Below the pieces are notes generated by a model. The model worked only from the letters and a program-made list of their open reading frames with translations, was not told the origin of the DNA and made no database searches. This document shows, piece after piece, positions 17,047 through 54,200 of a DNA stretch of 64,000 bases. This DNA is from Datnioides undecimradiatus (Eukaryota > Chordata > Actinopteri > Lobotiformes > Datnioididae), in the NCBI GenBank assembly GCA_008933995.1, contig WARS01000014.1:5627192-5691191 (forward strand). The letters are read 5' to 3'. Position 1 is the stretch's first letter, and each line of letters opens with the position of its first letter. Position numbers and translations under genes: made by a program.

Positions 17047-18047
17047 TCATTGCAGATGAACATTGTCAGCCTCTGAGATCCTCAGCACAGGGGAGCTGAA
17101 GTTGGATGAGCAGGGAACTATGTTCTGGGTGTTAAGATAACTAATCTTTTTGCCGGTGTCCCCACTTGATCCTTCTTCCAGACTGGCCTCCAGTGAGATG
17201 GGCCCCTGCAGCTGGCTGCTGGGCTGCGGTGGAGGCACCAGGCCATGCAGGAGGCTGTTCCCCAAGTTGGAGTTACATCGAGCCAAATTTTCAGTCAGAT
17301 GCTGCATGTACACCTCCTCCAGCTGTTTCTCCAGCATCCCATTCAGCACTGAATTAGACATAGGCTCCAACCCTGATCCGGGCATATTCAAGCTGATGTT
17401 CTCACTGGTCCCCATAGCCAGATAACCCTGGTCTGGTACTGAGAAAAGAGGCTTCCCTTGTGGCTCCTCACTGGCAGACCATTCTGGTTGATGGTAGACT
17501 TCAGAGAGTAAATCGTGACGGGCTATGATGGATCTCAGTGGGTTGGGTGAGATGTCAGCCACCTGAAGGTCTGGATATTTTTCTAGCAGGCTACAGTCGT
17601 CTAAGCAAACTATAAAATCACGGTCCAGGATGAGGTCAGTCGGACAGCCAGGGATGGAGCGGCCTGCAGGACCCTGAGGCACCACTCTCAATCCCTGGAA
17701 TTGGGGGGGGTCTAATTCTTCCTGGTTTGGACCTGATTAGAGAAAAATTGCTATTTATCTGGCATGATTTCATTAGCAAAGGAAGAACAATTTAGTCAAA
17801 GAAAGGCAAGAAAACTAGACTAAGCAAAGTTAAGATTAGTGTGTAAAACCGGTACAGAAAAAAACTGTTTACCTGCTTCAGCCGAATCTGTCTGTAGGTC
17901 TGTGGAGTTTGAGTCGGTGAGAAAAGGCCTGCAGTTGACTGCATCCATGCAGTGTGTGTGTGTCTGTGATCTCTGCCGCTTGGAAGAAGAGGCAAACTTT
18001 CTCTCCTCCCTGTAACGCAACACTCTGAGAAAACCTTCGGCCAACAT
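17047..18047 (-). CDS. tasl: tasl, TLR adaptor interacting with SLC15A4 on the lysosome (286 aa)
   Basis: Two coding exons, 17873-18047 and 17047-17732, joined in phase 1 (GCA G | GT CCA). The protein opens MLAEGFLRVL, close to MLSEGYL at the human TASL N-terminus, the part that docks into SLC15A4. The middle has SNSVLNGMLEKQLEEVYMQH, matching the human ISNAVLNEYLEQKVVELY region. The C-terminus is SPVLRISEADNVHLQ, matching human SLHISQYSNVNP and containing the pLxIS-type motif that, once phosphorylated, recruits IRF5 downstream of endolysosomal TLRs. Length is close to human (301 aa). The residue before the motif leucine is Val, where a hydrophilic residue is usual. The sequence between these anchors is poorly conserved, as expected for a largely disordered adaptor. 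No membrane segment is visible. A second tasl-like paralogue elsewhere in the genome is possible. Confidence 0.85.
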
Positions 18048-42683: not shown

Positions 42684-45600
42684 TTAGACTAGTCCAGTCT
42701 GTGTGTGCAGGTGTAAGGGGTACGGTTGGTAGAGCAGAGTTGATCCCCCTTGGGGTATGTAATAGCTGCAGTAGCTGGGTTCTGCTAGATAGGGGGCACT
42801 GTGCTCAGCAAGGTATGGGGCAGGCTGGTAGAAGCACGTCACATGGTCCGTGTTGGGAATAATGTTCTGCTCTCCTAAAACCTTCAGTGCCAGCACTGTG
42901 ATCATGTTAAGCGTCTGACGCCTCTCGTGTCCCATCAGACAAACCGTGCTATCGTCTACAACACGACGCAGTGTCATCAGGTACTGGTACTTGCTTCTCT
43001 CCTCACCAATAAAATGGTTCTTCAAGTAGGACAGGATCTTCCTCTGCTGCTCCTGCACGTCAGGGAAATCGATGAAAAAGCGTGAGCACATGTAACGCTC
43101 CAGTGTCTTTATCTGAGTCTCACTGGCTGGTCGGTAGTCTCTGACCAACAGGTTGCTGTATTTTAATAAGCCGCCACCCCGAATCTCCTCAGGGTTCCTG
43201 GTGGCAATTAGGCGGTAGCGCAGGTGGTCCATGGCTGCCTCAAAGTCACCATACATGCTCTCTGCCAGGACCTCGACAGCAGGGACCGAGTCAGGTGCCT
43301 GAGGACTTCTGCTCTGTTCAGGCATGTCTGCAGTTACCTTGGGGACCTCTTTGTTCTCAGGCACAGAGATGGATGCCTCATCAGCTTCTGGAGGGGCAGA
43401 TTCCCCTGGGCACTGAGACAGAGATGGAGGCAGCACATGCGAGGTGGCGCTCGGGATTGTGATTGGAAAAGAAACAGGCTCAGCAACCCCAGGCAACGAT
43501 GAGATATAATCTTGTTCCTTTTTATCCTCCAACTGTAGGAGAGGAATTCCTGGCTGAGGGGAGGACTCTTTAATCTGCTCCTCGCTGTCTGTGTTCAGTA
43601 TCAAAGGCTCCATGTCTGAAGATACCTGAGGTACAAGGTCCTCCGACTCCACTGGTGGAGTGAGGCAGAGGAGGGGAGGGCTGAGGCAGGGGGAAGGGGG
43701 GCTGAGACAGAGTGGAGGAGGGCTGAGGCTAAGCATGGGAGGGGTCAGGTAAGGAGGTGAGCTCAGGCAGGATGAAGTAGGGCTGAAACTTAGGGGTGGA
43801 GAACTAAAGCTGGTAGCCGGGCTGACTGTGCTCAGCAAAGGAGATGAGATGCAGTGAGATGGAGGGGTCAGACATGGAGGAGGACTGAGGCTGGGTGGCG
43901 AGGGAGTGAAGCAGGGAGGGGAAAGACTGAGTATGGGAGGGGTGAGACAGGAAAGAGGAGGTGTTACACAGTCGGAAGGGGAGGGTGTACTAAGTGTGGT
44001 CTCTTGAGGGGTGCCATCGGGCTGATCCAAGTCCATCTTTTTGGTCCGTAGTTCTCTGTATTTATCCTCATCACTGAGCTCAACTTCTGAGGTACATACA
44101 AGTTCTTGGGTGTTTAAGTTGGACGTAACAGTGGGTGAAACTAACATGTCCACTGAGTCATGGGGCTCTGATTGTTTGGATGCAGGGACAGTTTTATCTG
44201 CAGGGGACTGGCTTTGCTCATCAAAAGCTTGATGTGTAGTTGGTATCTGATTTAGGCTCTGAATACTTGTCTCACGTGAATTCTCTGTGGTTATCTGAGG
44301 GGATGATGGCTCTTCAGTTAAAGCAGACACGGAATCCACAGCAGAGGTGGAGTTAATATCAGGGGCTGGATCAGGAGATGAGGTAAGCTCTAGGTTTGAA
44401 ACTAGGTCACTGGAAGAGTTGGGTTCAGGCCCAGGGCTGGTTTCAGTAGAGAGACTAATCACTGGAGTGCCTGTAGGGTCCAAAGTGAGAGCTGTCGGCT
44501 TTGGGTTAAAGGCTATCTCAGGCTCAGGGCTAGGGCACGGGATTGGATCCAGACAGGGCACTGTAACAGATTCACTCTCTAAGACTGGACCAGTGGAATG
44601 ATTTGGAGTCACCTTCCTACACATCCTCCGAGGAGGCTTGGGAGAGGAGTGTTTGAGCACCACCATGTGAGATAGTCTATCTGAGGCCTTACAAGAGGGA
44701 GAAGAGGAGGTCTTTTTGTTAGAAACAAGGCTGGGTGGTGCAGGTAAAATATCCTGAGTATCTGGAGGGCTGACGGCATCAAGTGTGTTATCTGTGTGTG
44801 GTGTGCTGTGAGTCTCCAGTGTTTCCTGTGTGCCAGTAGGCTGTGTGTTGTGAGGTGTAAGAGATATGGAAGAGGTGGAGCAGGAACAATCAATACCCTG
44901 TGTATCTTCAGTGTTTTTTGCTTCTGATGCTAGAATCTTTTCTGCCACTTCACTTATTTCTGTGTCATTTTCCTTCTCTGCTTGCCTCCCCATCTCTGCT
45001 TCTACTTTTCTTTCATCTGTCTCTATCTTTGCATGTGAAGATGTGCTGGCGCCTGGAACAGACACATGTTGTGTCTTATCTTTCTCAGTGCCTCTCTGAT
45101 CCTCACAGAAACACTTAGAGGAGTCTGTACTTTGCCGCTCCTCTGCCAGGTTTAGAGACTGTTTCTCAGTTTCGTTTGAGGTTTTTGGCGGCTCGGGCTG
45201 TCCCATCTGCTCTGTGAATTCTTTCTGTTCATCAAGGGGTCTCTTGTGGTCAGATTGTTCTCTCTGGGCAGGGAGTTTTTTGTGATTTGAATGTGCTGGT
45301 TGCGGGCCATCATGTGGCTGCTTCTGGGACTGCTCTACTTTTGTTGAGCATTTGGTTTCGTCTGAGAGCTCGGACTTGTATACGAGTTCAATTTGAGTTG
45401 GAGGCTGAGCTTCCTCAGAGGTCTGTCTGTTTTCTGACGAAAGGTTTAGAGATGTCTGGTCAGACAGGTCTGTCTCACTGAAGTTTTCTCTGTCCCCTGA
45501 CACTTCTTTTAACTCTGCCGCTGTTTTTCTTTTGACGTCTTTTTCTGCTTCGGAGTGTTTTGTCTGCTTTGTCTGTTCCGTTTCTTCTGAAAGTTCTGTC

Positions 45601-46782
45601 TGGTCCTCCTTTTCATGCACCTCATCTCTCTGTTGCGTCTGGTTGATCTGAGCCTCCTCTTTGCTGGATGAGTCTTTACCAGTGGACTTCTCAGTTTCCA
45701 TTTCTGCAGCTTTGGCCTTTGTGAGCAGAGTGGGAGAGTCTTTATCCTGATTCTCTGCATGGTGGCCCTTCAGATCAGTAGTATTGTCTTTGTGCTGTGA
45801 TTCCTGCTGCATGTAGGACTCCAGGAGACGATCCAGAATGATCTGGAAGGAGTCGACACTGAACTCAAACTGTCGCCTCAGCACACTCACAAATTTGAGC
45901 TCCAGGTTTTTGCCACTGTTGTTTGAGAGCGAGATGAGGCTCCAGCGGTCATGCTCATTGAAGACCTTGACCATTTTTTGGACATAGGCCTCCTTCATTG
46001 TAGCACTGCTGATCCGCTCCCTGTTGACTCCAGCAGGTAGGCAGTCCAGCAAGCAGCCCAGCACTGACTCCTTGATCACCTGGGAAGAGAAGAGGTCAAC
46101 AACATGACAGCTACAACTAATGACTGCAATCTGAGTGCAGTTTTGCTGGTTGAACTGAATATTGTGATGCTCTTGTGGTTTAGTTTTCTGTATAATGCAA
46201 TAAAAATATTATAACCAGCACTATTGATTGAGCTTTATGGTAAAATGTTCTAAAATTAGATTATGGGTAGAATGACATTACAATGGCATTACTATCAATA
46301 CAGCATCTCAGGAATAAAAAATGCAACACCCTCGGAAAAGAGAAAGTAGAGATCTAGTATTGCATACATAGATAATACAGGAGGATGAAAGTTAATGCAC
46401 AGACCTGAACCTCAACTCTCAACTTTTATCCATTGACCTGCTTCTATTTTCTGACCAAACACTACAGTTATCATACCTGGAACTCCTCCTGACTGGGCAG
46501 CTCCACTCCAAAGATGATGTCCAAGTCTTTGTAGCTTGTTCCGTTGTCTCGGACAAGAACGTGGCTGGCCGTGGAGCCGTTCAAACGAACATCTCTCACT
46601 CTGATCCCCTGCTTCTGCAGCCTAGCCCGCACAGCTATGATGATGTCTCTAGGACGCAGCTCCAACGTAGGAAAGTTCCCACGGCCGTGGATTGGAACCA
46701 CCTCTGACAAAACCTGATGGAGAACCTCCACCTGCTCGGCATTCAGGCTGTGGAAGCGCTGACTAGATCTGGTTTCAGACAT
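42684..46782 (-). CDS. tent5d: tent5d, TENT5/FAM46 poly(A) polymerase with a giant insertion (1233 aa)
   Basis: Two coding exons, 46477-46782 and 42684-46079, phase 0. TENT5 enzymes add A residues to mRNA 3' ends. Residues 1-102 hold [10 protein letters not shown], the nucleotidyltransferase GS motif ([11 protein letters not shown]69-S70) and catalytic aspartates in YKDLDIIF (D86, D88). The third acidic residue lies in KNLELKF (E162). [16 protein letters not shown] follows. The conserved C-terminal part restarts at about residue 1040 with [58 protein letters not shown] and [10 protein letters not shown]. Ser after KFV, FGVELP and NHFIGE point to TENT5D, as does the Xq21-like neighbourhood. 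Between about residues 193 and 1040 there is an uninterrupted in-frame stretch absent from mammalian TENT5D (389 aa). It is Glu/Lys/Gln-rich first, then Ser/Thr/Pro-rich, with CLTPP/LSLSPP repeats. An acceptor at 46792 ahead of the ATG implies an upstream 5' UTR exon. Confidence 0.93.
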
Positions 46783-51225: not shown

Positions 51226-54200
51226 ATGTCGAATATGGAGAGTATCCTTTCCTGTTTAGTGCAGTTACCTAGCAATAGCAGTAGCTGGCCAAATGACATC
51301 TACGTCTGTTTGCTAGTGCTGATATAAAACAGCTTGTAACTTTTGCCCAGTCATCCAATGATGAAGAAAAAGGATGGCCGGCTAATGTTAGCAAGCTCGC
51401 CTGACCAATTTGATTACCGTTTGGTTTAACTCTCCCTTGCTGAGGAAAAGCAATTTATCATGCTTACATTAAGCTGGAAGCTTAAGTTTATAATCAGTAT
51501 ACATCTTACAATTCTAATGTATTACTAAAATAAATAATTCCCTGACTAGCTATACAGAACACTTGTTCAACCTCAAGTTTGCTGCCAAGGAGCTGCAGCG
51601 CAACTCCAAGAAATGTGACAAAGAGGAAAAGGCAGAAAAGGCTAAAGTCAAACAGGTTGGCTTCTTAAATTGTGAGTTTACAAGAAGCCTGGATCCGGGA
51701 AAAGGCTGGGTTATATGTTTGCGGCTATTGTCTGTGTAATGTTTTTGTTCTTGTTTCTCAGGCTATTCAGAAGGGGAATGTGGAGGCAGCCAGGATCCAT
51801 GCTGAGAACGCCATCCGTCAGAAGCATCAGTCCATTAACTTCTTGAGGATGAGTGCACGGGTGGATGCTGTGGCTTCTAGGGTCCAGACTGCTGTCACTA
51901 TGAACCAGGTCAGCACTGCAGGTCAATGGTTTGTAGACTTGCCATGCTTTCTGATGTTATGTCAATCAGGGAAATGACAACCAGTGAAAAACATATTTAC
52001 TGGAGTCGCATCTTTATCTTTTAACATCTTATTCAGAGTATGTCAGATCATTGTTGAAAGAGAAAAGGGGAACAGAGGTTTGTACTGTCCACCACGAATG
52101 AGATTTACCTCGTGTCATGTCATTTACCTGGCAGTGAGACCGAGCAACCGTCCACTTTATTAACCAAACCACCTTGTTGGTAGGTACCTTAAGAATGACC
52201 TCCTGTATTCACTGAAAAAGATGTAGAATCCACATGGCTTTTACATGGCAGTGGTTACTCTTGTATGACTCTGTTATACCTCTGCAGTAGAGTACATGAG
52301 CTCATATTTACCATATATTTCACCATGCAAGTGCATATTTTGAACACTTTGAAAACATCTTATTTCAGGAGGTATTCAGAAGGTGGAAAGCTGCAGAGCG
52401 TAACCATTTCAGAGTAAAAAGCCCACGGTAGTCTCTCCTTAAGACACACTCAGTCAAACGTCCTACACAAAGCAGGCAGAGGGAGTGAGCGTGAGCAAAA
52501 AAAAAAAGGCTAGCAGACATGCAAACAAAAAGCCGCCAATTACGTAATGTCATTAGATGTGCTTCAGACTTTAGGCTTTTAGCTTCTCGCTCTTATGAGA
52601 CTGACAGCCTCTTTAAATTGCTTTAATTCAGGTTCACCGTAGGACAGGCATTATTTAATAGAAAAGAACTTAATAGTGTCTATAGAAATGAAAGCAGAGT
52701 GTGAGATGGAGCTGAAAAACACCTGGGGGGAAAAAAAAAAAACCCCTGTATGTTGTTGTGCTACTGCTGCCTGTCTCATCAACACAGATGCATTTATAAT
52801 AAACCCCTTTATGCTAACATGGTCAGCTATTGGTAGGTTGGGCTTGACAAGATTAATCCTCATTCAGTGTCATGTTTGAAATATGAGGGATACTTTGAGG
52901 ATGACGGGCAGTCATGACAAAGCGTCTGGTTAAAAAGGTAAAAGTGACACCTAGTGGGAATAAAAGCATACAGCACATCAAGCTTTGCCTTCTCAAGAGC
53001 CATCTCCCTGTCAGACAAACGCTCTGATCCTGTTTCGAATCACAATAAATTTTAATGTGTCTTTTGTCCAGGTATCTAAATCACTGTCTGGAGTTGTCAA
53101 GTCCATGGATGCTACATTGAAAAGCATGAACCTGGAAAAGGTGAAAAAGCCAACATGGGCACGAAAAGACACACACATGAACAAAGTGAATGAAAATATG
53201 TTGGTTAGGATTTATTGAATGGCTTTCTTTGACTCTAACCCTCACTCTCGACAGATCTCCACATTAATGGAGAAGTTCGAAAGCCAGTTTGAGACTCTTG
53301 ATGTGCAGACAGCTCAGATGGAAGACACAATGGGCAACACCACCACTCTGACAACACCTCAGGTAATAAGCACTGTCTGCTTACAACCGGGGAAAACTGT
53401 GCCCCTGTGGCTACCTTTTAAAAGCACCAACAATTCAAACCCTGAATCCTCCAAACACACACTTCTGAAATAACTGTTTGCCCGGTTGGCTCCTAGAATG
53501 AAGTGGATATGCTGCTGCATGAGATGGCTGATGAAGCAGGGTGAGTACGGCCCATATGTTGAAATTTAAAAAAATATAAGTAACTGCAGTTACAACCTTA
53601 AAAGCTTTGATCGGGATAAAAAGAAATGGAGGGAATTCAAAAACACAATGTTCCTATTTGTTAAAAAAGACAGATTAACTTTAAAACAAGGCAGGATAAA
53701 TTGTGCTAAAAGCTTTATTTAAATGACTTTCATATTAAAATCTTTGTTTACACAGCTACTTTATAATACAAAAAGCCCATTAATACTAATGCTACAGTTT
53801 TTAAGATGCTGTGTTGTGAGGTCAAAGTGACTTTCCCGTTATTTTGTTGATTTTCTTCAAGAGCTAAAGCAGCAAAGTAGGAATTACGATGAAACTGTTT
53901 CTGTTTTTTTTTGTTTTTTTTTTAAAGGTTGGATCTTAACCTGAAGCTCCCTTCAGGCCAGACCTCCTCCCTGGCTTCTTCTGCAGAGCAGGTAACACAT
54001 CCACTCTTGTCATTATGCTGCCGCTGTATTTGCAGAAACGCAGAAACCGATTTCACACAGTATCTGTACTGTCTTTGGCTGTCTCACTGGTGCACATGAC
54101 ATTCGAATGGAAACTGAAAACGATGCTCCGCTGAAACACTCACCTCCTGTAAGAGTGACAGGTGGCTCTTAAACTGCTGCTGTTCGGTACAGTGGCCGTG

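Follow-up and report, generated by a model that had tools for sequence, protein, structure and literature searches.

A long in-frame insertion within a tent5d-like gene of Datnioides undecimradiatus and its same-site counterpart in a duplicate gene

In the usual description of TENT5 proteins, the core is conserved and the variation lies in disordered ends. A tent5d-like gene in the genome of Datnioides undecimradiatus departs from this layout, as the variable part is internal and lies where the catalytic domain meets the helical domain. The locus raises the question of whether the extra sequence is a genuine part of the coding region and, if so, what it could contribute to the enzyme. The window analyzed here is a stretch of 64,000 nucleotides (C467:5627192-5691191) from a genome whose 497 contigs total 581,297,614 bases.

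Gene structure and family assignment

The tent5d-like gene lies on the minus strand and consists of two coding exons with a joined product of 1,233 amino acids (Table 1). The 1,132 codons that the initial annotation had given for the second coding exon correspond to 1,131 amino acids plus the stop. With an approximate scoring matrix, the splice donor (CAG/GTATGA at 46476) scored 8.0 and the acceptor (TTCCCAG/G at 46080) scored 12.8. Intron sites within the CDS differ among the TENT5 paralogs; in frames read by eye, the intron follows EEFQ in the gene of the window, RQIVQ in the B type, and TLK in the A type, and the frames of the C-type gene and of the second tent5d are uninterrupted. Elsewhere in the window, an ORF at positions 17050 to 17736 of the minus strand matches Pfam TASL (TLR adaptor interacting with SLC15A4; E value, 1e−7) and carries near its C terminus a stretch, LRIS, which we take to resemble the pLxIS motif.

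Table 1. Positions of the tent5d-like gene, its parts, and its neighbor in the window
Feature	Positions	Strand	Description
Coding exon 1, tent5d-like gene	46477-46782	−	Start ATG; NGS and DLD motifs
Intron of tent5d-like gene	46080-46476	−	GC 0.35
Exon 2 (ORF), tent5d-like gene	42684-46079	−	1,131 aa plus stop
Exon 2, 5′ part, remainder of NTase domain	45813-46079	−	Solved TENT5C/B match ORF residues 2 to 90
In-frame insertion	43266-45812	−	849 codons, aa 192 to 1040; order-promoting residues scarce; net charge about −69
12-residue stretch inside the insertion	44610-44645	−	Similar to SPKLQRKMSRKL in the duplicate's insertion
Degenerate 7-residue (21-bp) repeat array, ∼CL[ST]PPxx	43650-43976	−	aa 804 to 912; missing from the duplicate
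Helical domain and C-terminal tail	42684-43265	−	Ends TGLV, then stop; matches solved TENT5
Neighbor read as CHMP1-like	51546-54096	+	Approximate span of matching frames; head-to-head with the tent5d-like gene

Exon 2 alone matched the Pfam profile NTP_transf_7 in two stretches with 371.7 bits (cut-off, 27), and solved TENT5A, TENT5B, and TENT5C matched it to either side of the insert (best E value, 3.4e−104), in agreement with the earlier reading of both ends as TENT5. The motifs LNGST, KDLDII, and RRQFEF are present in the translated protein. We take GS, DLD, and the later Glu to be catalytic, the third catalytic Glu presumably being that in RRQFEFSVD, and all three were kept, as had been claimed initially.

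Grouped by position, 14 NTP_transf_7 profile matches resolved into seven TENT5 genes in the genome. These seven were placed in a tree of 10 rows with the solved TENT5A, TENT5B, and TENT5C, without a TENT5D reference row and with four of the seven own-genome rows (both A type and both B type) lacking exon 1. The two insert-bearing genes were sisters (100/99) and fell outside TENT5A, TENT5B, and TENT5C, and the others joined A (two genes; 95/94), B (two genes; 87/86), or C (one gene; 90/90). The origin of FAM46D has been placed in Euteleostomi (PMC3652184). Taken with this origin, the exclusion from A, B, and C is as expected for TENT5D, and the name tent5d given to the gene at the outset can be retained by exclusion. 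TENT5D is reported (PMC13291444) to have nearly no N-terminal tail and to diverge in its last 35 residues. In the gene of the window ∼9 residues precede the core, with just a few more in the C-type gene (L010), and the product ends in TGLV, versus TWLPC[NS] in the five other paralogs. As its NTase and helical domains are both complete, the gene was treated as a variant within the TENT5 family.

For human TENT5D (389 amino acids), the truncations and chimeras reported in PMC13291444 set the boundary between the NTase domain (to 209) and the helical domain (from 210), as deletion up to residue 209 removes the whole NTase domain and stopping at residue 210 removes the whole helical domain. The insert in the window comes after amino acid 191; without it the core measures 384 amino acids, close to the human length, and this places the insertion near the NTase/helical-domain junction.

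An open frame at the same site in two genes

Between fixed measuring points, the gene of the window has 853 residues and its sister has 388, compared with 19 to 20 in all five insert-free paralogs. The gene of the window does not have the compact layout in which only a short linker separates the NTase from the helical domain, and at the insertion site the solved TENT5A, TENT5B, and TENT5C align with a gap of at most 1 residue. The insert, first estimated at ∼840 residues between 43.26 and 45.81 kb, measures 849 codons; the initial annotation had marked the region 42966 to 45807, and the measured boundaries are 43266 and 45812.

The insert contains no stop codon in its own frame, and the other five frames contain 24 to 63. 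In Markov simulations with the same composition (500 per order), the mean number of stops for 849 codons was 35.4 at order 1 and 30.6 at order 2, and no simulated sequence had fewer than 21 or 16 stops, respectively. The GC content of the insert (0.50) also exceeds that of the neighboring intron (0.35). In-frame, free of stops, and not intron-like, the stretch reads as coding, as was first proposed.

DNA and protein searches of the genome matched the insert itself only and gave no further copies, the copy-search tool being one that passes over simple repeats and words of very high frequency. An origin of the insert from a transposon, a repeat, or another gene was rejected on the same searches. 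At E values up to 1, Pfam yielded NTP_transf_7 alone in the exon 2 product and in the duplicate, and the NCBIfam models of bacterial and archaeal proteins had no match in either insert. A search of viral contigs returned 67 pattern matches, none of which was a relative.

The insert is not a lone oddity. A second tent5d (C493:7435953-7438235; L009:2454-4736) is a single open frame of 760 amino acids without the CDS intron of the window gene, and at the same site it carries a different, shorter insert, which adds 384 codons in frame (L009:3024-4175). These codons contain no stops, versus simulated means of 13.3 to 15.3. The same neighbor stands head-to-head with each tent5d copy, and its exon has one additional, weaker match in the genome, on C7. 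We assume the name CHMP1-like for this neighbor; Pfam Snf7 scores it at 14.4 bits, under the cut-off of that profile, and none of the 14 Snf7 matches in the genome lies on C467 or C493, so the reading is unconfirmed by the family search. Between the two tent5d copies, dS in the flanks was 2.31 (190 codons) and 1.36 (185 codons), and dN for the same codon sets was 0.195 and 0.129. Thus, the duplication is old, with dS near saturation, and the core is conserved. It could correspond to the teleost whole-genome duplication, and the sister gene with its same-site insert suggests that the insertion is older than the gene duplication. In the second copy the motif is LNGAT, in contrast to LNGS in all six other TENT5 genes of the genome, with Ala in the position of the Ser of GS; this change may alter its activity.

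An assembly error, a pseudogene, or an ordinary unannotated intron is very unlikely to account for the stretch, because the duplicate has an insert at the same site, an open frame, and a matching neighbor. The 849 codons run without a stop between intact ends, the genome searches gave no second copy of the stretch, and the same architecture recurs on another contig. An ordinary intron was rejected specifically, as in-frame stops would be expected to accumulate, yet there were none in 849 and 384 codons. A subtler possibility is an exitron, with all or part of the stretch spliced from some transcripts such that short and long enzymes coexist. Candidate in-frame splice pairs are present, and just 1 of 100 codon shuffles attained the score of a 312-nt pair in the duplicate (L009 3370-3681). 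However, the best in-frame pair of the window copy is ordinary (75 of 100 codon shuffles reach its score), the best pairs leave part of the insert in place, and the pair scores come from the approximate splice matrix; this explanation is improbable.

Composition and divergence of the two inserts

Both inserts are acidic, being rich in Glu and Lys at the start and then in Pro, Ser, and Thr, with net charges of about −69 in the window and about −32 in the duplicate. Order-promoting residues make up 19.6% and 19.5% of the inserts, versus 35.7% of the flanks of the window gene. FoldIndex gave −0.104 and −0.129 for the inserts and +0.149 and +0.165 for the cores. The FoldIndex windows called disordered were 559/799 and 288/334 in the inserts (window gene and duplicate) against 44/284 and 24/276 in the flanks, the remaining 240 of 799 in the large insert not being called disordered. 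The disorder-type composition first noticed in the window is hence seen in both genes. AlphaFold placed little structure in either insert. In the exon 2 product, the blocks covering the insert (residues 101 to 930) had pLDDT values of 29 to 43 and almost no secondary structure, and the helical domain (991 to 1070) had values of 70 to 88; conserved parts of the core scored as low as the insert, at 33 to 41 for residues 41 to 80 of the exon 2 product and below 50 for residues 142 to 190 of the other model. Both models rest on shallow input (7 rows; pTM, 0.29 and 0.39), and with parts of the conserved core equally low, the low pLDDT says little. On composition and FoldIndex, the insert is probably disordered.

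Residue-level homology between the two inserts was not detected by local alignment, with scores at chance in each of six settings (reached by 128 to 154 of 200 shuffles). The best 12-residue pair, which includes SPKLQRKMSRKL of the duplicate, was equalled in score by 1 of 500 local shuffles and by none of 300 full shuffles; this pair was picked by a composition-weighted scan at a place first spotted by eye in an alignment, so the test is post hoc. At other lengths the best pair covered the same place but was weaker, with 74, 27, and 9 of 500 local shuffles reaching the score at 8, 16, and 20 residues, respectively. The shared pattern is basic, SPKxxR[RK]MxRK[VL], and different codons are used at five of its seven identical residues, as would be expected of old, conserved residues.

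These comparisons bear on whether the two inserts share an origin. Two independent insertions into one permissive site after the duplication would fit the lack of residue-level homology beyond the 12-mer, and the site may simply be tolerant. Against this, the five other TENT5 genes keep 19 to 20 residues there, indicating that insertions are not frequent, and the order of composition and the 12-mer are common to both inserts; we consider separate events unlikely, and a common origin may be the better reading.

Other features are confined to one copy. The window insert holds 14 [ST]PP motifs (a number reached by 0 of 500 shuffles), many of them within the degenerate 21-bp repeat, versus none in the duplicate. 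The simpler [ST]P was weakly enriched in the window insert (37; reached by 21 of 500 shuffles) and not in the duplicate (5; 438 of 500), and PxxP was depleted in the window insert (8; 500 of 500). Overall, 12 motif patterns were tried; strong enrichment was restricted to [ST]PP in the window copy, and none was enriched in the duplicate. PEST-like stretches (16 in the window insert and 6 in the duplicate) were given no weight with this composition. The initial annotation had proposed that the loop could hold phosphorylation or partner-binding sites or drive condensation, none of which gained support here; a proline-directed phosphorylation array is not the common function, as the duplicate is without [ST]PP.

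At fourfold-degenerate sites, the GC content of the inserts (0.38 and 0.42) is near background, versus 0.51 to 0.83 in the cores, which fits weakly constrained sequence. The arm could accordingly be a tolerated, near-neutral expansion of a surface loop that grew in frame without disturbing the fold and whose reading frame was preserved solely by the essential helical domain encoded further down the exon. The background GC at fourfold sites, inserts of sister genes that are not alignable, lengths as far apart as 849 and 384 codons, and repeat growth in one copy only are all in its favor. Yet both copies have kept hundreds of extra codons since an old duplication, the inserts are alike in composition, and the similar basic 12-mer is written mostly in different synonymous codons. 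Neutral growth is thus the main rival, a possible explanation but not the one we favor.

A putative regulatory arm and its comparison with known systems

Our preferred reading, to which we assign a probability of about 0.5, is that the gene encodes a non-canonical poly(A) polymerase of the TENT5D type. In place of the short linker that joins the NTase and helical domains, this enzyme would have a long, translated, disordered arm, likely regulatory or docking in nature. The site would have been filled before the gene and its neighbor were duplicated together; the arms would then have diverged beyond alignment, and that of the window copy would have lengthened, in part through the 21-bp repeat. 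As both ends of the arm would leave from one loop, the folded core could stay intact with the arm present in the mature protein. Placed beside the RNA-binding cleft, the arm could keep the NTase and helical domains tethered, use its charge and size to screen nucleic acid, and present at least one short basic docking motif. Judged from sequence, it is most likely an acidic, disordered regulatory or docking element.

A broader version of this proposal is more doubtful and is offered tentatively. In ray-finned fish, the giant disordered arm of a distinct TENT5D type, of a conserved kind and with a basic docking motif, might replace or add to the C-terminal, FNDC3-dependent targeting of mammals and so set which mRNAs are tailed. 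In sticklebacks, Fam46d is reported to be higher in the diencephalon and hindbrain/cerebellum of group-housed fish (PMC4569571), and a fish gene of this name is on that account expressed in brain.

With 849 residues, the arm exceeds twice the length of the remaining enzyme (384 residues), and it has a counterpart in a duplicate, making the pair a natural experiment on the amount of added sequence that a template-independent polymerase can accommodate at the NTase/helical junction and on a possible role of such an arm in regulating tailing or target choice. No description of an internal insertion in TENT5 was found in the open-licence PMC literature, as far as its text is available, and protein databases may hold predictions. 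Within the family, Caenorhabditis elegans TENT5 is known as PQN-44, a name that presumably denotes a Q/N-rich, prion-like region. TENT1/TUT1 is likewise a terminal nucleotidyltransferase with a proline-rich insertion in its catalytic part (PMC6232586, PMC7988573). This likeness is one of description, as TENT1/TUT1 belongs to another family and its insertion is in the palm rather than at the NTase/helical junction. TENT5A, TENT5B, TENT5C, and TENT5D (FAM46) share with the gene of the window the NTase and helical domains, the catalytic motifs, and matches flanking the insert, but the solved TENT5A, TENT5B, and TENT5C have a short linker at the position of the insert. The second tent5d copy is a sister with the same insertion site and the same neighbor, and it differs from the gene of the window in its 384-codon insert, the lack of a CDS intron, and GA for GS. 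Together, these comparisons suggest that the giant internal arm, whatever function it may serve, represents a new form of the known TENT5 family.
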